51,548 bases of DNA, taken from NCBI GenBank assembly GCA_023248955.1, contig JAHFDP010000022.1, forward strand, positions 1 through 51,548, read 5' to 3'. Position numbers and translations under genes: made by a program. The notes under the pieces are model-generated. The model was not told the origin of the DNA. It searched no databases and saw only the letters and a list, made by a program, of their open reading frames with translations. Below are positions 8,759 through 25,999 of this stretch, piece by piece (the first letter of the stretch is position 1; each line of letters opens with the position of its first letter). This stretch comes from Deltaproteobacteria bacterium. Its GTDB lineage: Bacteria; Myxococcota; Myxococcia; Myxococcales; JAHFDP01.

Positions 8759-11700
8759 TTATAGCGCTTTCGGCTCCAGGACGATTTCGGCACTCTGCGC
8801 AGCATCGACGGCCGAGGCGAAGTCCTTGAACGCGTTCCACGCATCCGGGCCAACGCGGGCAGCTCCCAAATCCAGCCGTTCATGAAGGGTCAGGCTACCG
8901 GGCGCGGCACTGGAGGACCAGGAGAAGGCCGCAAAAGGAAGGGAGGAAGTGGTCGCGGGTGGCGCGACGATCTGCGTCCCGGCGGGAAGCGCGAGGCGGA
9001 CATCAATGCGGAGCTGTTCCGCGGAATCGATGAGCAGCGGAGTTACGCGCTCGGCGCGACCCACGAATCGGTGGCCGAGCCGAAGCGGCCAGAAGGATGC
9101 TGGGAAGGCAATCCGGCCGCTGTCGGTCCGGCGCGCAAACCCCTTGGCGTGAAAGCGGTAACGAAGCACCGCCGGATCGCCGGGCGCCGCCGGCTCTTCG
9201 ACCGAGAGATCGTCGAGCACCGCGCCGTGAAAATTGTGCGTGAGCTGCGACTCCAACGCCTGCTTGCGCTTCGCCGCTTCGAGCTGTTCGAGCGCTTCGG
9301 CCATGCCCGCACCCTGAAAACCCGTGGAGGTATCGACGGCGCTTCCGGTCAACGTCCCGTCGGGTTCTAGTTGAAGGTCAAAGACGATGGCGCGCGCGGA
9401 CTCCATTGCTCCGCGCCTTCGCGCTACGCCCGTCGCCAGCAAAGCTGGCTCCTCCTCCATTGCTCCGCGCCTTCGCGCTACGCCCGTCGCCAGCAAAGCT
9501 GGCTCCTCCTCATCCGTGGACTTCGGTGTGCGTTCTACGCGCACGGACTCGCCAGGCTCGGGAAGAATCGTGGCTTCGGCGTCGGAGAGAGACGAAGGCA
9601 GCGCACCGAAGGGCGCCATCCGCATCGAGGAGTCGATCCAGAGCGGGCCATCCGGGAAGTCCACACGCAACACGGCCGCTGTCCAGAGATCGCCGTGCGT
9701 AAAACGGTAGGGCGCCGGATCGGTTCCAAACGCGCGGATGAGCGCCACGTGGGAATGAATACCAGCCGCGGTGAGCGCCGCCTTGAGGACGGGCAGCCGG
9801 TTGCCGCGGCCGCTGGCCAAGACTTGCGCGGCGGACGCGGAGAAGTCCGTGGATCGACCGCGGCCACGGACCACCTTGGCGATGGCGGCATAGATCGCGG
9901 CTGCCTTTTCTCGCGGTGTGGAGCCCGGCGCGCTGCGCTCCAACTGATCGATCTCGAAGGCGGGCCGCGTCCGCAAAAGCGCGAAATCGGCGAACGACTG
10001 CGCCAGTGCCGCCTGGCCCGCACCCGAACCGACTTGAACCCAGGGCATGAACTCCGCCTCGCTCGTCGCACTGGGCTCGGGAACCAGCGCGGGGACTTTG
10101 CGCGCGGTGTAGGTCCAGCGATCGTACCCATCGGTTCCGACCGCCGCGGCGACATGCTCGATGGGTGGCGCGGAAAAATGATGCGCGTCGATCGTTAAAC
10201 CGGCAGCGGGCGCGGCGTGTACTTCGTAGCTGCTTTCGAAGATCGGAATTTCCGGCGCGCGAAAAGTAAAACTCGCCGATGCGAATCCCGGGAGCGCGGA
10301 ATCACGAGCGCCCATGGCACGAAGATATTCAAAATCGACGTAGTCGCCAGGTTCGAGACCACTAAGCGAAATCGAATCCTTGCCGGCGATTTCGTCTGGT
10401 TCGAGCACGCTTCCGTCTGGCTTGAGGGTCCGGAGAGCGACGATCTCGGCGCCGTCGGGGACGTTCACGTCGCCAAAATGCGCCAGGCCACGGCGGTCGA
10501 GGATCTGCGTAAGTGTGTGGATCCGCTCAATGGCCGATCCGTCGGCGTTCACCTCGAGCGCGGCCTGGTCGAGAAGCAACTCTGCCGGTGCTCCCCGCGC
10601 GGCGCCACCGGCGGCCCTGAACGAAGCGATGGCCTCCTTCGCGTCGCGATGAGCCCAGGCCAGTGGCGTTTGGCCATGCTCGTGATCCAGTGCGTGGCGA
10701 AGCAGGAGGTCGCCTCCACTCAGTCGCAAAGAAGCGTCGCGTTCCGCTTCCGCGGCGGTCTTGTCGCCCGCAAGCTCGAGCGCATTCGCCAAACGGTGGT
10801 GCAGCATGGCCGACCGCGGCGCGAGCTCGACAACCGAACGAAGGAGTGCCGCGGAGGCCACGGCATCTCCCGAGGCCAGAAACGCATCGGCCAGCGCCAG
10901 CTGCGGCGCCACGCGAGCGGGGGCCTTCGCCGCCAGCGACCGCGCCAGTTGGAGCGCACCCGCAACGTCTCCACGCTCTCGTAACCGAAGAAGCGAGGTC
11001 CGTCGGCCGTCTGGACAAGCCTTGACGAGTTGGGGAGCCAGCGCGTCTTCGGAAGCGGTGTCCTCTTCTCGGTGCGCAAGATCATCAAGCAACTGAAACG
11101 CATCGCAGCGATCGGGGTCACCGGCAAGCGCCTCGCCTGCCAAACGGCGGGCATCGGTGGTGTCTCCGCGCGCCTGGCGTAAACGCGCTTGGGCGATCAA
11201 CACACGCGAGGCGCCCGGAGCGGCCGCGGCGGCTAGCGCGAGACGCGTCTCGGCATCGTCGTAGTGCTCGGCATCGCGATCCATCGCCGCACGGTGGAGT
11301 TGGAGCCGTACCATGGATTTGTCGGCGGCCAACGCGGCGTCTTCGTCTCTCGCCGCGCGCCCCTTGGCCACGCGCTCCGGCAAATCGGCATCGCGCAAGG
11401 TCAGCTCCGCGCGCAACGCCAAGGCCGGCGCGCTCTGCGGAGCGAGTGCAACAACGCGTTCTATCTGCTCTCGGGCCGCGGCACGATCGTCCGGAAACGC
11501 AGCCAGCGCGGCCAAGAACGCTTCCGTCGATTCGTCTTCGGAAAATGGGGGCGGAGATTCAGCACTGGCGGCTGCATGCGGTGCTGCGCGCATCGTGCCC
11601 TTCGCGGGTTCGGTCTGCGCGTCGGAGTCCGAGCCGTCTCTTCTCGTCAGCGCGACACGGAAGCGGGCGCCCTCGGCACGCGTCCAACGCACCAGCACCC

Positions 11701-12610
11701 GATGCCTACCGGGCGCCAGCGATACCGGAACGGCGACCAACCGCGGTGGCAACCGCGGGTAGGGCGTGCGAACGACGGTCCGCTCGCCGTCGATGAAGAG
11801 CCGCAATGCGCCCGCACCCTCGACAAAAAGCAGATAGTCACCGCCGCGGGCGAGCGTCACGTCGCTGGCGGCGACATAGAGATCGGCATCGAACGGCTCC
11901 TCGTCGAGGCCAACATCGCCGTCGGGGAAGGCGAGCCTGCGCGTGGGCGCTAGACCGAACTGCGTGATGTAGGACGCGGCAATGGGCGTGGTCGCGTCGT
12001 CGAGCGGCGTCGGAGCATCGAGATCGAGCAGGTGGTGCGCGGCGAACGGTCCGGCGATGGACCAAGAAGTGACCGCACCCAGTGCCGCCCACTCCTGTCT
12101 TTCAACAACGTCGTCGCCCCGCTGCGCCGCGACGTGAGCAAGAACCTGATGCGCGCGCCGTGCGCCGCGCGCGGAAGCTCGGCCTGAGCCCAAATAGTGC
12201 ATGACCGCTTGCTTGATTTCCGCATCGACGGCGGGAGATGCGCCCTGCCAGGCGTCGAATCGCGAGAACGCGAGTTCGGCGAGCGGATCTTCCGGGTGCG
12301 CGGAAACGAGGCGGCCGTCGAAGCGAACCGCAGCGAGATCATCCACGCGATCGGCGGCCATTTCGGCCATCCCGAAGAGCGCCCAGCGTTCAAGCGGATC
12401 GCCGTCGAGCGCGGCTTCGAATCGGCGTTGCGCGGCCTTGGCGTCTCCACGTTGCAGGTAGGCGGACCAACCGCCTCGGGCGATCTCGGCGGCGCTGGCC
12501 CCTGGCGCGTCAGCCGCGTGTTCGATCGATTCCTCCGTGGAGGGTGCTACGCGTTGCGACACACAGGAGCAGAGCACGACGATCGTAACTATACTAAATA
12601 TCCTTTTCAT
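8759..12610 (-). CDS. TPR / DUF3857 / transglutaminase-like lipoprotein, catalytic triad lost
   Basis: This 1283-residue protein starts with a signal peptide ending LCSC, so lipidation at Cys16 is likely. TPR-like helical repeats rich in Ala, Leu and Arg fill much of residues 30-640. A DUF3857-type beta domain follows (about 660-790; motif LKPDGSVLEPDEIAGKD). A transglutaminase-like fold comes next (about 870-1010), and then a C-terminal beta-rich part. Against the paralogue immediately upstream, the catalytic Cys position is Gly936 (GRGNR where the paralogue has GDCKD), and the His position reads Ala. Only the Asp in LWIDSS remains, so I infer a pseudoenzyme with a binding or scaffold role. 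An exact 54-bp tandem duplication adds two 18-residue repeats after the transglutaminase region. Its ATG overlaps the upstream stop by 4 bases, indicating translational coupling. Confidence 0.85.
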   Translation of the reverse strand: MKRIFSIVTIVVLCSCVSQRVAPSTEESIEHAADAPGASAAEIARGGWSAYLQRGDAKAAQRRFEAALDGDPLERWALFGMAEMAADRVDDLAAVRFDGRLVSAHPEDPLAELAFSRFDAWQGASPAVDAEIKQAVMHYLGSGRASARGARRAHQVLAHVAAQRGDDVVERQEWAALGAVTSWSIAGPFAAHHLLDLDAPTPLDDATTPIAASYITQFGLAPTRRLAFPDGDVGLDEEPFDADLYVAASDVTLARGGDYLLFVEGAGALRLFIDGERTVVRTPYPRLPPRLVAVPVSLAPGRHRVLVRWTRAEGARFRVALTRRDGSDSDAQTEPAKGTMRAAPHAAASAESPPPFSEDESTEAFLAALAAFPDDRAAAREQIERVVALAPQSAPALALRAELTLRDADLPERVAKGRAARDEDAALAADKSMVRLQLHRAAMDRDAEHYDDAETRLALAAAAAPGASRVLIAQARLRQARGDTTDARRLAGEALAGDPDRCDAFQLLDDLAHREEDTASEDALAPQLVKACPDGRRTSLLRLRERGDVAGALQLARSLAAKAPARVAPQLALADAFLASGDAVASAALLRSVVELAPRSAMLHHRLANALELAGDKTAAEAERDASLRLSGGDLLLRHALDHEHGQTPLAWAHRDAKEAIASFRAAGGAARGAPAELLLDQAALEVNADGSAIERIHTLTQILDRRGLAHFGDVNVPDGAEIVALRTLKPDGSVLEPDEIAGKDSISLSGLEPGDYVDFEYLRAMGARDSALPGFASASFTFRAPEIPIFESSYEVHAAPAAGLTIDAHHFSAPPIEHVAAAVGTDGYDRWTYTARKVPALVPEPSATSEAEFMPWVQVGSGAGQAALAQSFADFALLRTRPAFEIDQLERSAPGSTPREKAAAIYAAIAKVVRGRGRSTDFSASAAQVLASGRGNRLPVLKAALTAAGIHSHVALIRAFGTDPAPYRFTHGDLWTAAVLRVDFPDGPLWIDSSMRMAPFGALPSSLSDAEATILPEPGESVRVERTPKSTDEEEPALLATGVARRRGAMEEEPALLATGVARRRGAMESARAIVFDLQLEPDGTLTGSAVDTSTGFQGAGMAEALEQLEAAKRKQALESQLTHNFHGAVLDDLSVEEPAAPGDPAVLRYRFHAKGFARRTDSGRIAFPASFWPLRLGHRFVGRAERVTPLLIDSAEQLRIDVRLALPAGTQIVAPPATTSSLPFAAFSWSSSAAPGSLTLHERLDLGAARVGPDAWNAFKDFASAVDAAQSAEIVLEPKAL
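9401..9508 (-). repeat. Exact 54-bp tandem repeat (x2) carrying a GCCAGC-AAA-GCTGGC palindrome
   Basis: Copies 9401-9454 and 9455-9508 are identical. Each contains a 6-bp-arm palindrome with an AAA loop, preceded by TCCGCGCCTTCGCGCTACGC. The period is a multiple of three, so each copy adds 18 residues in frame (EEPALLATGVARRRGAME). Related sequences occur at 15072-15117, 25921-25944 and 31117-31155, which suggests a dispersed palindromic element and not simple slippage alone. Confidence 0.9.
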
Positions 12611-15600
12611 CGCGCCGCCCGCTCGCTGCCCGTTTCGGAGAGCTTCACCTGGCGCAGAAGCGCCGCATCGAGACCCGCGAGAAACGAGCGAAACTCCGCA
12701 TAATCGGCGGGCTCCACACGGTCGGCCTTCAACACGACCTCTCCCTCGGCGATCAGCCGTGCGCCTTCATGGTGGTAGGCGAGATGGTAATTTCCGTAGC
12801 GAGACTGCGCGATCGCGTCCTCCGGAAGTTGAACCTGCGCCAGCGTCGTCGGCAGGTCGACTTCGTAATGAAAGCGGTGCCGCCAGGGATAGCCGAGCAC
12901 CAGCGCGTAGTCGCGCTTCGAGAGCGGCGCGTAGCTCTCGACGTACTGCGGGGCCTGACCAAACGGCGTAAAGGAGAGCCCGCGCAGAGCGTGTTGCGCA
13001 AAGCGCGGCACCGTTGCGGCGAAACTGGTCGAGACGTCGCGCTCCACCTGACCAGGATCGTTCATGTCGAACGCGGTGCAGGTGAGCCCGGGAAAGGCCC
13101 GGCTGTAGGTCTCCTCGAAACGGCTCTTGCGCGTGTCCTTCGACTCGTAGCTCCGGCGATAGTCAGGTGCACCGAGGCCACGGACCAGCGTGGTTCCGGT
13201 GAGGTGCGCGTCGCCAGCGGCATCGAGCGCAATTTGGAAACGGCTCTCGGTGGCGTTATCCGACGTGAGGGCGGCATCGATGGTCACAAAGTCGCTGTGG
13301 CCCGCGGGATCGACCACCAGCGCTTCGGCGCCGCGATCGTCGCCCGGCAGCTCGTGCGACCCGTGGTACTCGGCCGTCCCGTCGAGGAAGAGCTTGAACT
13401 TGGGGACGTAGAGGATGGCGTGGTTGAACACCGCCAGCGACGCCGGTTCGCTCGGAATTTTTCCCAGGTGGTGCATGCGAACCAGCGCCAACCGCGACTC
13501 GATGCCCAGCGCGTCCAGCATGGCGTGCATGAGCGACGCCTTGTCTTTGCAGTCGCCGAACGAGCGCTCGAGAATGGTCGACACTTTGTACGGCTTGAAA
13601 CCGTGGATACCGAACTCCAGCCCGACGTAGCGCGTTTGGGAAATCACGTAGTCGTAAACCGCTCGGATGCGCGCCTCCTCGTCGGCGGCGGGAAGGGCGG
13701 ACACCGCTTCTTGCGCGGCTTTTCTGATTTCGTCGGTCACGTGGAGCTGGTCCTTCACCAAGCCCCAATAGAATTCGCCGACCTGATGCCAGTCTTTGTA
13801 AGTGGAGACGTGAACGAAGGTCGCCACCTCGCTCCATCCTGGCATCCCCGGTTCAGTCACGATTTTGGGCACGTCTTGCGCGGTCCACGAGAGCACCGTG
13901 GCGCCCGCGTCACCGGCTTTTTCGGTGCGGGTAACCTTGGCCGCGCCCGCGGTGTTGGAATAAAAGCGCCGGCCCGGCGGGCCAATCAGCACGTAAGCGG
14001 CCTGGGTCGTGGGGATGGTGCTTTGAAGAAAAACCACGTCGCCGAAATAGTCAGCGAAATAGTTGTCCTCGCCCGCGTCGTCGAGGCGGGTGGTGATTTC
14101 CACGATGTCGCCGGGCGCTAGCGTCGGGAAGGAAAGGACGCGCTGGCGGTAATCGTAATAGAGACCAAACCAGGGCTCAGAGAGCGAGCGATCGTTTTCC
14201 CCGTGACTCTCCACGATGCTGCCGTCGGGGCGAATCACCCGCGCCCGCTCGATGCGCAGCTCCTGCCGACCGGGAGTATATTGAATACCGTGCGTCCGCC
14301 ACATCTCCACGCCGCGCTGGTTTTGGACCAGCACGATCTGCTGCTCGGTGCGCGAGGCGAGCCCGTTCGGAAAAACGCGCGTGACGTGAACGTCGGACAG
14401 CATGACCGCATCGTCGGACGCGGCGTGATCGCTGCTTTGTCGAAGCTGTGTAGCGTCGGCGAGATAGGGCGCCGCGTAACTCTTCTCGGGGCGCACCGCG
14501 CGGGCCAGCTCCCGCAAAGGCGGATTCTGCGGCCTGAGCGCGAGGGCGTGTTGAAAGTCATCCAACGCACCCGCCGTGTCGCCGCGCCGAAGCAGATGCT
14601 TGCCGCGGCGCTCGTAGACTTCAGCGCTGTCCGGCGCCATTTCCCGCGCGCGTGCGTAGTAAGCATTGGCTTCGGAGACTTCGGTGCCACCCGGCGCGCC
14701 TGCACCGTGCGCGCCCCCATCGTGAGCAGAAAGCACATCCGCGGCGCGGAGGAGCGGATCGACTTCGCCCGGATCCAACGCGGCAACATCGTCCAGCGTT
14801 TTCGTGGCCCCGGGCAGATCGCCTTTGGCCAGCAGCAGCTGCACCAGCGCGTTGCGCGCTTCAGAATCGTCCCAGCGGCGCGCCAACGCTCGGCGAAGCA
14901 GCGCTATCGCGGTCTCGGATCTTCCCAGGCGGCGCTCCGCAAAGGCGGCCTGCTTGAGCGCATCCGGCGACTTCGGAAATCGCTCGGCCAGCGCCCGCCG
15001 CTCTTGGATGGCGCGTGGGAAGAGGCCCATCGCCTCGTGCGCGCGCGCCAGCAGGAGCTCGACCTCAAGCGTTGTTCCGCGCCTTCCCCCTCTGCCCGTC
15101 GACAGCGAATCCGGCGCGGTCCCTAGCGCATCTTCGAGGTAAGGCAGCGCGCGAAAGGGCTGCCCGCGATCGAGCGCTGTCCGCGCCAGCGCGAGCTGCG
15201 CACTGACGTCGTGCGGAGACAGTGCCAGCGCGGTCTCGAGCGCCACGCGGCGTTTGTTGGCGTTCTCTTCCTCGTAGCGAGATTGCCGAATGAGCAACGC
15301 CGGGTCTTTCGGTGCCAGCGCCACGGCGCGTTTCTGGGCCTCGAGATGCGTCCGCTCCTTGACGTCGAAGGGGCGCCGGCTGGCGAGCAGGATGGCCTCG
15401 TCTTCCGCCAAAGAAGCGTCATATGTGGTCAATACCGATCTTGACAAAAGAGCAAGTGCGTCGTCGACGCGTGATTCACGCTCGAGTGTCCGTGCCGATG
15501 GATCCACCAGCCGCGCGCCCGCCTTGGGAATGGACGAAGCCAGGCTCGGCATCGGCGCACCGCCAACCGTCCCGAGGCGAACACGCAAAGATGGCCAGGC

Positions 15601-16359
15601 CTCGCCACCCGCCACCTTGAGCAGCAGCGTGTTTTCGCCTTGCTTGAGCGTCACCGCCGCGAAGCTTTGATCGAAGCGCGCCGGATGCTGCGCCGGATCG
15701 CTGCGCACCATTGCGCCATTGACCCAAAGTTTAGTGGCCCCCGAAGCGCCGCAGGCAACCCAGACCGTCTGCGCGCGCGGCGACGTGATCACGGTCGCGC
15801 CGTAAAAAACGATCTGTTTGTGCGGTGAAAGAAACGAGCTGAGATCGACGACGCCGAACTCCGGCGCGAAGGGCAACACGCGCCAGTGCGCTTCGTGCTC
15901 TTTGCCCGGCCAAGCGACCGTATAGTCGACCGGCTGCGTCTCCGGCGGAAACGTGGCGTCAAAGCCCGCGCGACCGTCGTTGTCGAAAGGCCCGGCCACT
16001 GCCCAGGCCTCGACGGTACCCAGCGCCTTCGCGTCCGCGCGCGCTGCACCGAGATCGCCCAGCGTGCGCGCGGTTTCCAACGCAAATTCCAGAGCCAGTG
16101 CGCGCGTCTCGCCGCGGTAATGCGAGTCGCCGGCGACTTTCAAATAGAACGCCCGCAACGGCCCCAACTCGGCCTGGCTCTGTTTCTTCTCCTCCGCGAT
16201 GCGCAGGAGATCGGAAACGCCGCGCGGCTCGGCGGCATGCCGCACGAGTTGCGCCTGATGCGTAGGGAGTTCGTTCGCCACGGCCGCCTGCGCGACCAAC
16301 ACCAGAGCAAGGGGGCACCAGCGCATCAGGAGGCCAAACAAGAACGTCTTGGTCCGCAT
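12607..16359 (-). CDS. Secreted TPR / DUF3857 / transglutaminase-like protein with intact triad
   Basis: The product has 1250 residues. The frame stays open upstream across comF, but the start at 16359 gives a typical signal peptide (MRTKTFLFGLLMRW...AQAAVANE) and leaves a 32-bp gap after comF, so I prefer it. A predicted beta domain (PA14- or galactose-binding-like, about 130-260) is followed by TPR repeats (about 280-620). DUF3857 follows (about 640-800; IRPDGSIVESHGEND), then a transglutaminase-like domain with GDCKDKASLM (Cys937), NHAILYV (His980) and LFLDGT (Asp993), and a C-terminal beta domain. The triad is that of papain-fold peptidases and transglutaminases. The substrate is unknown, and a role at the cell envelope is inferred. 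The stop overlaps the ATG of the dead paralogue by 4 bases. Confidence 0.85.
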   Translation of the reverse strand: MRTKTFLFGLLMRWCPLALVLVAQAAVANELPTHQAQLVRHAAEPRGVSDLLRIAEEKKQSQAELGPLRAFYLKVAGDSHYRGETRALALEFALETARTLGDLGAARADAKALGTVEAWAVAGPFDNDGRAGFDATFPPETQPVDYTVAWPGKEHEAHWRVLPFAPEFGVVDLSSFLSPHKQIVFYGATVITSPRAQTVWVACGASGATKLWVNGAMVRSDPAQHPARFDQSFAAVTLKQGENTLLLKVAGGEAWPSLRVRLGTVGGAPMPSLASSIPKAGARLVDPSARTLERESRVDDALALLSRSVLTTYDASLAEDEAILLASRRPFDVKERTHLEAQKRAVALAPKDPALLIRQSRYEEENANKRRVALETALALSPHDVSAQLALARTALDRGQPFRALPYLEDALGTAPDSLSTGRGGRRGTTLEVELLLARAHEAMGLFPRAIQERRALAERFPKSPDALKQAAFAERRLGRSETAIALLRRALARRWDDSEARNALVQLLLAKGDLPGATKTLDDVAALDPGEVDPLLRAADVLSAHDGGAHGAGAPGGTEVSEANAYYARAREMAPDSAEVYERRGKHLLRRGDTAGALDDFQHALALRPQNPPLRELARAVRPEKSYAAPYLADATQLRQSSDHAASDDAVMLSDVHVTRVFPNGLASRTEQQIVLVQNQRGVEMWRTHGIQYTPGRQELRIERARVIRPDGSIVESHGENDRSLSEPWFGLYYDYRQRVLSFPTLAPGDIVEITTRLDDAGEDNYFADYFGDVVFLQSTIPTTQAAYVLIGPPGRRFYSNTAGAAKVTRTEKAGDAGATVLSWTAQDVPKIVTEPGMPGWSEVATFVHVSTYKDWHQVGEFYWGLVKDQLHVTDEIRKAAQEAVSALPAADEEARIRAVYDYVISQTRYVGLEFGIHGFKPYKVSTILERSFGDCKDKASLMHAMLDALGIESRLALVRMHHLGKIPSEPASLAVFNHAILYVPKFKLFLDGTAEYHGSHELPGDDRGAEALVVDPAGHSDFVTIDAALTSDNATESRFQIALDAAGDAHLTGTTLVRGLGAPDYRRSYESKDTRKSRFEETYSRAFPGLTCTAFDMNDPGQVERDVSTSFAATVPRFAQHALRGLSFTPFGQAPQYVESYAPLSKRDYALVLGYPWRHRFHYEVDLPTTLAQVQLPEDAIAQSRYGNYHLAYHHEGARLIAEGEVVLKADRVEPADYAEFRSFLAGLDAALLRQVKLSETGSERAAR
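15072..15117 (-). repeat. Diverged copy of the palindromic element, in frame
   Basis: The stretch TCCGCGCCTTCCCCCTCTGC followed by CCGTCGACAGC aligns well with the 54-bp repeat at 9401-9508. It encodes APDSLSTGRGGRRGTT inside the TPR region. The palindrome itself has decayed. It is clearly similar by eye but has not been tested statistically. Confidence 0.5.
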
Positions 16360-16391
16360 TCCTGCAATTGTCGGCCGCCCCCTCTCCACGA

Positions 16392-17087
16392 TCAAATCGC
16401 TCGCGCCAACGCGAGGACCTCCACCCGCCGTGCTCCGGCTTCCTTGAGTGCTCGCGCGCAGGCCGCGGCCGTCGCGCCGGTGGTGAGCACGTCGTCCACC
16501 AGCAGAACTCGCTTTCCCTGGGCGTGCTTGGCCGACAAGAACGCGCCGCGCACGTTGGCCTCGCGGGCGCGCGTATCGAGCCCCACTTGCGGACGTGTCT
16601 CGCGGATGCGCCGAAGAAGACGCGGCTCGAGCGGAAGTTTCCACGCCGACGAAAGTGTACGCGCAAGCAACAACGCTTGATCGAATCCGCGCTCGCGCAG
16701 GCGTTTTTTGTGCAGGGGAATGGGCGCGATCAGATCGGCCATCGGCGCGCCCGTGCTGGCGAGCAGCCGCCCGAGCGGACGGGCCACTCCGTACGCTCGG
16801 CCGTATTTCAATCGATGAATGCCCTCGGCGAGCGCGCCGCCAAAAAGCCACGGGGCATGCGCCCGCGCGAACGCGGGAGGATGGCCGGCGCAACGCGGGC
16901 AGCGACGCGCTTTGAGCGCTAGCACTTCGCTGTGAAAATCCACAGGCAGTCCGCACACCGCGCAGCCGGGAGGGCACTCGACCAGCGTGGCCGCGCACGG
17001 TTCGCAAAAAGGATCGGCAGGCAGCGAAGGCGCGCGACACGCGGCACAGCGCGGGGGGAGAAGGAGACTAATGAACGCAGAGAGCAT
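16392..17087 (-). CDS. comF: ComF family phosphoribosyltransferase-like protein
   Basis: This 231-residue protein begins LLLPPRCAACR and has a four-cysteine zinc-finger-like N-terminus (CxxC pairs at about 14-17, 29-32 and 42-45, plus 68-71). A type I phosphoribosyltransferase domain follows, with the PRPP loop VLLVDDVLTTGAT at about residues 193-205. These are the hallmarks of ComF/GntX. The family is linked to DNA uptake: ComF is a cytoplasmic protein that acts with ComFA and the recombination machinery during transformation. It is the first gene of a likely three-gene operon with the two DUF3857 proteins, although no functional link to them is known. No Shine-Dalgarno precedes the start. 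A 14-bp-arm hairpin lies just upstream instead. Confidence 0.9.
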   Translation of the reverse strand: MLSAFISLLLPPRCAACRAPSLPADPFCEPCAATLVECPPGCAVCGLPVDFHSEVLALKARRCPRCAGHPPAFARAHAPWLFGGALAEGIHRLKYGRAYGVARPLGRLLASTGAPMADLIAPIPLHKKRLRERGFDQALLLARTLSSAWKLPLEPRLLRRIRETRPQVGLDTRAREANVRGAFLSAKHAQGKRVLLVDDVLTTGATAAACARALKEAGARRVEVLALARAI

Positions 17088-25920: not shown

Positions 25921-25999
25921 GGGGCGAAGGTCGGCTTTGCCGACGAGCGCCGCGGGGCAGAGCTCCGGTGCCCCCCTACCCAAGTGGGCAGAGGGGGGA
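25921..25999. repeat. Intergenic palindromic element between rsfS and rlmH
   Basis: GTCGGC-TTT-GCCGAC (25930-25944) lies next to GAGCGCCGCGG, and a second stem pairs CCCCCC (25971-25976) with GGGGGG (25993-25998). Read on the minus strand, the order CCGCGGCGCTCGTCGGC-AAA-GCCGAC parallels the repeat at 9401-9508. It may also weaken readthrough from rsfS, but no T-run follows. Confidence 0.6.

Follow-up and report, generated by a model that had tools for sequence, protein, structure and literature searches.

The window, by which we mean the whole stretch of 51,548 nt that was analysed, contains a minus-strand ORF of 1283 aa with two identical 54-nt units inside it, lying next to one another at 9401-9454 and 9455-9508. 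Tandem Repeats Finder places the repeat at 9401-9511 with a 100% match. Each unit contains the palindrome GCCAGC-AAA-GCTGGC (9435-9449 and 9489-9503), and the two are translated as EEEPALLATGVARRRGAMEEEPALLATGVARRRGAME. In this way the residues EEEPALLATGVARRRGAM are added twice to the host protein. The features of the locus are as follows.

8759-12610, minus strand: host ORF, 1283 aa, a TPR/DUF3857 protein; inserted residues 1034-1069 (36 residues)
9401-9508, minus strand: tandem array of two identical 54-bp units (repeat comparison, Tandem Repeats Finder)
9457-9509, minus strand: first unit in the reading direction, 53-nt core (covariance model R2, 71.8 bits, E 3e-16)
9403-9455, minus strand: second unit in the reading direction, 53-nt core (R2, 71.8 bits, E 3e-16)
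9489-9503, no strand assigned: hairpin 1 of the first unit, GCCAGC-TTT-GCTGGC on the minus strand (palindrome search, fold, compensatory changes)
9435-9449, no strand assigned: hairpin 1 of the second unit (palindrome search, fold)
9467-9478, no strand assigned: hairpin 2 of the first unit, GCGC-GAAG-GCGC on the minus strand (fold, stem variants)
9413-9424, no strand assigned: hairpin 2 of the second unit (fold, stem variants)
15046-15115, minus strand: a copy, probably decayed, within the adjacent paralogue (ORF 12607-17040) and in the same frame (E 2.6e-4 by blastn, whereas the covariance models reach only E 0.22-0.32)

A sequence-only reading of this DNA had described two identical in-frame units, each with a palindrome, and both were found within the ORF. 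The same reading called the host gene dead, but the ORF is intact and a protein search matched 58 of 60 genomes, own genome included. Of four proteins examined in connection with the host ORF, those of L034 and L046 were set aside, having probably been translated from the wrong strand. It also saw related copies between genes and in a MITE-like element of the window. No clear one was recovered by R2, which found the two array copies and otherwise only weak matches, with E 0.026 or worse. One such weak match (E 0.026) lies on the plus strand at 25926-25968.

Architecture of the repeat unit

What kind of sequence is the unit? It is about 51-57 bp long and is built from two hairpins, in the order GGAG-GA-H1-GACGGGCGGAG-H2-GGAGCA. 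The layout over 46 copies from 15 genomes is GGAG-GA-(stem-loop 1)-CGACGGGCGGAG-(stem-loop 2)-GGAGCA. Stem 1 occurs as GCCAGC/GCTGGC, GCGGGC/GCCCGC, GCCGGC/GCCGGC and other variants, and stem 2 as GCGC/GCGC, GGCC/GGCC or GCCC/GGGC. For the eight stem pairs tested, 98.1% of cells pair despite the differing stems. Two-sided changes occupy 48 cells, compared with 20.6 in shuffles, and none of 500 shuffles was as high, although kinship among copies inflates such counts. The fold of a single unit contains both hairpins; its z of −1.4 relative to shuffles is only mildly better and not decisive alone. No terminal inverted repeats were found, and the fold pairs no end with the other end. Among 55 single copies, the base preceding the tag is most often C (65%) and the core tends to be followed by TNGG(A); the flanks show no clear target-site duplication. 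Neighbouring copies run in the same direction, head-to-tail, as judged by eye from the match lists.

The tag that precedes the first hairpin is GGAG in 41 of the 46 copies, GCAG in three, and GGAA and AGAG in one each; GTAG and GTGG do not occur there. The second tag is GTAG in the window copy and in other copies. The unit is also unusually free of stop codons: 33 of the 46 copies are open in all six frames, whereas shuffles have a mean of 21.4 and a maximum of 28, with the caveat that the copies are related and not independent. Among ten copies from the own genome that are read in the same frame (frame a, see below), the variable columns are spread 6/6/4 over codon positions 1, 2 and 3. This distribution indicates that selection acts on DNA or structure rather than on the peptide.

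Copies across the genome and its relatives

The repeat is dispersed. A blastn search of the own genome with the array region returned 25 matches at E ≤ 0.001 across 10 contigs, and a 27-base mid-unit pattern allowing up to three mismatches matched 29 times, compared with once for the reversed pattern, which argues against chance. The short sequence GCCAGCNNNGCTGGC with one mismatch is by itself a weak signal (101 matches, 77 in the control). A covariance model, R1, built from 23 units, gave 47 matches at E ≤ 1 among 150 candidates scored, corresponding to about 23 sites. The genome is a draft of 116 contigs and two of its arrays contain runs of N, so an assembly or chance artefact might be considered; single, uniquely flanked copies in numerous genes and assemblies, together with the reversed control, reduce the probability of such an artefact to practically nil. 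The sequence-only reading had proposed scanning the genome with a profile of the unit, and the scan revealed many further copies, many of them in frame within genes, in keeping with its idea of a palindromic repeat that is dispersed and can sit in coding DNA.

At several sites in the own genome the units form tandem arrays that repeat every 54 bp: in the window and on contigs C57, C80, C89, C87, C35 and C52. The copy number of two long arrays (L009 4941-5452 and L014 3968-4475) is not countable because each contains ten N. Among twelve representative units the median difference is 3 of 49 core bases, which makes the spread look recent. By our own gene calls, with frames read by hand, genes hold 15 of the 20 stronger sites. 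Frame a (the EEPASLATGGARRRGA frame) accounts for 12 of these, and frame b (C35 7058), frame c (C45, at the C-terminal end) and the antisense strand (C35 3166) for one each. C57 was counted as frame a from both flanks, its array holding a run of N. The other five sites are intergenic or N-terminal (C80, C89, C52, C49 54108 and C87 30343). The hosts include TPR proteins, a ParA-like ATPase, an RseP-like protease and an LptA-like protein. One TPR gene (L010 3940-7296) has three separate insertion sites with five units in total, one site being in another frame, and the gene next to it carries a further copy. The LptA-like gene (L130 2118-3050) has two copies at different positions. A different palindromic repeat, GCGAAGGCCAGCnnnGCTGGCGAGCGCGGGCGGGGGG, is common to L023 1450-1560 (G000 C48) and L024 1450-1560 (G000 C56).

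How far does the repeat extend beyond this genome? R1 matched 16 of 145 genomes of the order, own genome included (15 of 144 others), in families f1, f7, f9, f5 and f4. With R2 the count was 15 of 195 genomes of the phylum, and the one f4 genome matched by R1 was no longer among them. Copy numbers from these multi-genome searches are to be read as "at least", since no more than 40 candidates per genome were scored with R1 and no more than 29 with R2. An exact core pattern matched only one MAG in the genome_contigs collection (DP_8, "Deltaproteobacteria bacterium"), which appears to be the same assembly as relative G026; that match is then not independent of the order-wide R1 count. The exact pattern was absent from IMG/VR viral contigs. 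In a literature search for myxobacterial reports, reviews aside, none was recognised as describing the element.

A stricter test counted a site as in-gene only when both flanks are coding in one open frame, and was applied to 113 sites in 15 genomes, using codon scores from a home-made model with few training genes and approximate gene calls. These sites do not include the three weakest in the own genome (C103, C6 and C62:15069), the single site of G115, locus L240, listed matches such as G008 C91 and C109, G019 C41 and C102, and G044 C254, C353 and C22, or the further matches G032 C141, C239 and C375 and several of G026. The test was passed by 43 sites, 34 sense and 9 antisense. By genome, the own genome contributes 9 of its 20 sites (all eight sense copies being in frame a), G026 contributes 2 of 26, and the 13 other genomes together contribute 32 of 67. 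The 34 passing sites in relatives are distributed 7/11/8 over the three sense frames, with eight antisense. Hosts in relatives include glutamate synthase, a secretin, HlyD-like and NifU-like proteins, M3 and S9 peptidases, an SMC/RecN-like protein and a PPDK-type protein. Array periods are 54 bp (own genome) and 57 bp (G014, G008) within genes, and 53 bp (G026 C127) and 52 bp (G032 C12) between genes.

These placements bear on two functional explanations. First, the 18-residue repeat could be a motif with a function in proteins, which selection has copied from one protein to another, as the preference for one frame in the own genome might suggest (12 of 15 in-gene sites, and every sense site under the strict test). 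However, the relatives use all three sense frames and also have antisense and intergenic copies, the variation is not concentrated at third codon positions, the stems covary and the hosts are unrelated proteins. Since copies occur sense, antisense, in different frames and between genes, the peptide is not what spreads; varying frames and strands led us to reject the motif, which we consider very improbable. Second, the element could be kept as a regulatory DNA or RNA site, such as a terminator, an mRNA stabiliser or a gyrase site, and be found in genes incidentally. In G026, 24 of the 26 classified sites fail the in-gene test, most of them beside genes, as expected of such a site. But many copies lie deep within coding sequence, no position is conserved between genomes except for one neighbourhood apparently common to G013 and G041, and Rfam gave no match in the window. 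A regulatory role as the reason for the element's presence is therefore improbable.

In-frame insertion into genes

If the unit is an inserted element, related genes should exist without it. For the window protein, 29 orthologous loci were fetched; an ORF could be used in 23 of them, and 22 gave an alignment across the site. All 22 have 24-26 residues opposite 60 in the window protein, and each occupies 0-2 of the 36 element residues. The sequence-only reading had suggested this alignment too, and its outcome is a clean gap rather than residues conserved across orthologues. The closest genomes have only ~44-47% protein identity at this locus, so the window copy has no base-level empty site.

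Closer comparisons come from two genes with single copies. The glutamate synthase gene gltB of G013 has a net gain of 54 bp over five of eight relatives (G041, G038, G032, G026 and G029) and of 60 bp over the other three (G035, G018 and G047); in the protein alignment all eight have an 18-residue gap relative to G013. Likewise, the M3 peptidase gene of G018 has a net gain of 51 bp over three of five relatives (G032, G013 and G026), 63 bp over G035 and 66 bp over G044. All of these net differences are multiples of three. The ends of the element vary, such that a 53-nt core gives a net gain of 54 and a 52-nt core a net gain of 51, and each in-gene copy adds 17 or 18 amino acids. The alignment of the RseP-like host on C23 has a linker too variable for a gap to be placed. 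The predicted structure of the gltB domain with its insert, which was not counted as evidence, has a mean pLDDT of 48.9 and the insert (residues 164-179) is of low confidence.

Comparison at the sequence level thus makes a strong case that the element has been inserted in frame into genes. The scattered copies, the stems that pair despite their differences, the orthologues that lack the element and the multiples of three together argue for insertion of a dispersed repeat. The feature in the window is very probably an in-frame copy of a dispersed, non-autonomous, two-hairpin palindromic repeat of ~51-57 bp that was amplified once in tandem. The added peptide is most likely a tolerated passenger and not a selected domain.

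What are the implications of such an element? First, most of what is known of selfish repeats within protein genes comes from Rickettsia and a small number of REP-rich species; here a compact family occurs in soil bacteria that live freely, and relatives belonging to one genus offer both filled and uninterrupted sites. Second, core enzymes such as glutamate synthase are hit, as is a NifU-like protein. Third, the family makes it possible to test by what route such repeats move and how a protein copes with successive in-frame additions. Fourth, there is a caution for annotators, in that a repeat of this kind can be mistaken for a protein motif.

Known palindromic repeats and the question of a mobiliser

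The element works like Rickettsia palindromic elements (RPEs), a likeness that the sequence-only reading had drawn and that is borne out by in-frame copies in unrelated proteins whose orthologues lack the residues. Like RPEs, it is palindromic, dispersed over the genome, and found both between and inside genes. RPEs in Rickettsia are 105-146 bp long according to the available portion of PMC2229807; a further source on their properties, likewise available in part, is PMC10969869. Compared by description only, the element differs in being about 51-57 bp long and in having two separate short hairpins in place of one long stem-loop of about 100-150 bp. PARCELs (PMC2996958) also form tandem repeats within genes from palindromic coding DNA, but what is conserved in them is an amphipathic pattern of the protein, which is mostly a membrane protein whose function is unknown, whereas the frames and strands of the element vary and its hosts include core enzymes. 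Bacterial MITEs (ERIC, Correia/NEMIS and RUP) are, in the same partial text of PMC2229807, about 100-200 bp long and usually bounded by terminal inverted repeats. They resemble the element as small non-autonomous repeats that are sometimes fused in frame to genes, but the element is shorter and has no pairing between its ends.

The comparison with REPs is closer. The accessible part of Di Nocera 2013 (PMC3733652) describes REPs tagged GTAG and CGTC, and defines GTAG-1 by a palindrome beside the tag, a spacer dinucleotide and a 3-bp tail. Hairpin 1 has this arrangement (tag, GA, 6-bp stem, 3-nt loop and GAC tail), and it is nearly identical, with GGAG for GTAG, to the P. fluorescens REP GTAGGAGCCGGCTTGCTGGCGAT given in the consulted section of Nunvar 2013 (PMC3686654). 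The same part of PMC3733652 reports intragenic copies in O. terrae, R. conorii, Thauera and others, with O. terrae having the most intragenic GTAG repeats and GTGG tags in most of its GTAG-20 elements. Unlike members of the GTAG superfamily, the element has GGAG as its first tag and not GTAG (or GTGG, GYRG, GTMG). Its two hairpins, unlike each other, form a fixed pair pointing the same way, and its arrays run head-to-tail, whereas inverted head-head or tail-tail dimers predominate among GTAG REPs. No RAYT gene was seen flanked by the element. GTAG REPs are mostly intergenic; for the element, the share of in-gene sites under the strict test varies with the genome (2 of 26 in G026, 32 of 67 in the other relatives, 9 of 20 in the own genome). 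Because tag, dimer orientation and transposase all differ from those expected, we file the element with the intragenic palindromic repeats and not with the GTAG family. The element is new, but it belongs with selfish repeats of a kind already known.

How might the repeat spread? How the repeat is mobilised, how it is tolerated and what the GGAG tag contributes are matters that we infer, and a mechanism of spread can be put forward only weakly. An enzyme acting in trans on hairpin DNA may place copies at many sites. Copies in genes would survive if they lengthen the gene by a multiple of three bases overall and the protein tolerates the added peptide, and the low six-frame stop content relative to shuffles may help such tolerance. 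Tandem duplication at the 54-bp period could then add units without a frame shift.

One candidate for the enzyme is a Y1 (RAYT-type) tyrosine transposase that recognises GGAG-tagged hairpins, making the element a strict REP whose transposase was lost from the own genome or missed by its assembly. The hairpin 1 layout and its near match to the P. fluorescens consensus fit this proposal, as does the distribution of Y1_Tnp (PF01797): of the 53 genomes that have it among 145, 14 are element-bearing relatives (of 15 in all) and 39 are element-free (of 129). The Fisher test gives p 1.4e-5 with the own genome counted and 0.03 without family f7, in both cases ignoring shared ancestry. Nine of ten Y1 proteins checked score best with the REP-associated transposase model (the tenth with IS200), but only one passes the REP-associated cut-off. 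Y1_Tnp was not found in the own genome, which is 95.57% complete. Moreover, a search around 20 Y1 loci in relatives gave no match to the element at E<1e-3 under R1 or R2; the best match near any of them, at the same place with both models, has E 0.0021 (R1) or 0.074 (R2). A strict RAYT link was therefore rejected, Y1_Tnp co-occurring with the element yet lacking it at these 20 loci, and the tag, never GTAG or GTGG, also speaks against it. The link of Y1 to the element is suggestive only, and movement by a Y1 transposase is a possibility that we regard as doubtful.

For a non-autonomous two-hairpin repeat inserted in frame, a more specific history can be imagined, although we think it unlikely. 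The element would be a branch of the REP superfamily in which the first tag changed from GTAG to GGAG. With the built-in TAG stop lost, most copies would be open in six frames, making both coding and intergenic DNA usable. The branch would have entered several families of one order, with core enzymes among its hosts, and spread recently here without Y1, moved by an unknown enzyme.

Two further observations concern the Y1 genes of relatives. The ends of three Y1 loci (L112, L113 and L126) carry other hairpins, for example AGCTGCCGGCTTTAGCCGGCAGCT, that are unrelated to the element. In addition, G035 and G044 each have about 20 Y1_Tnp matches, which is unusually many for one genome.
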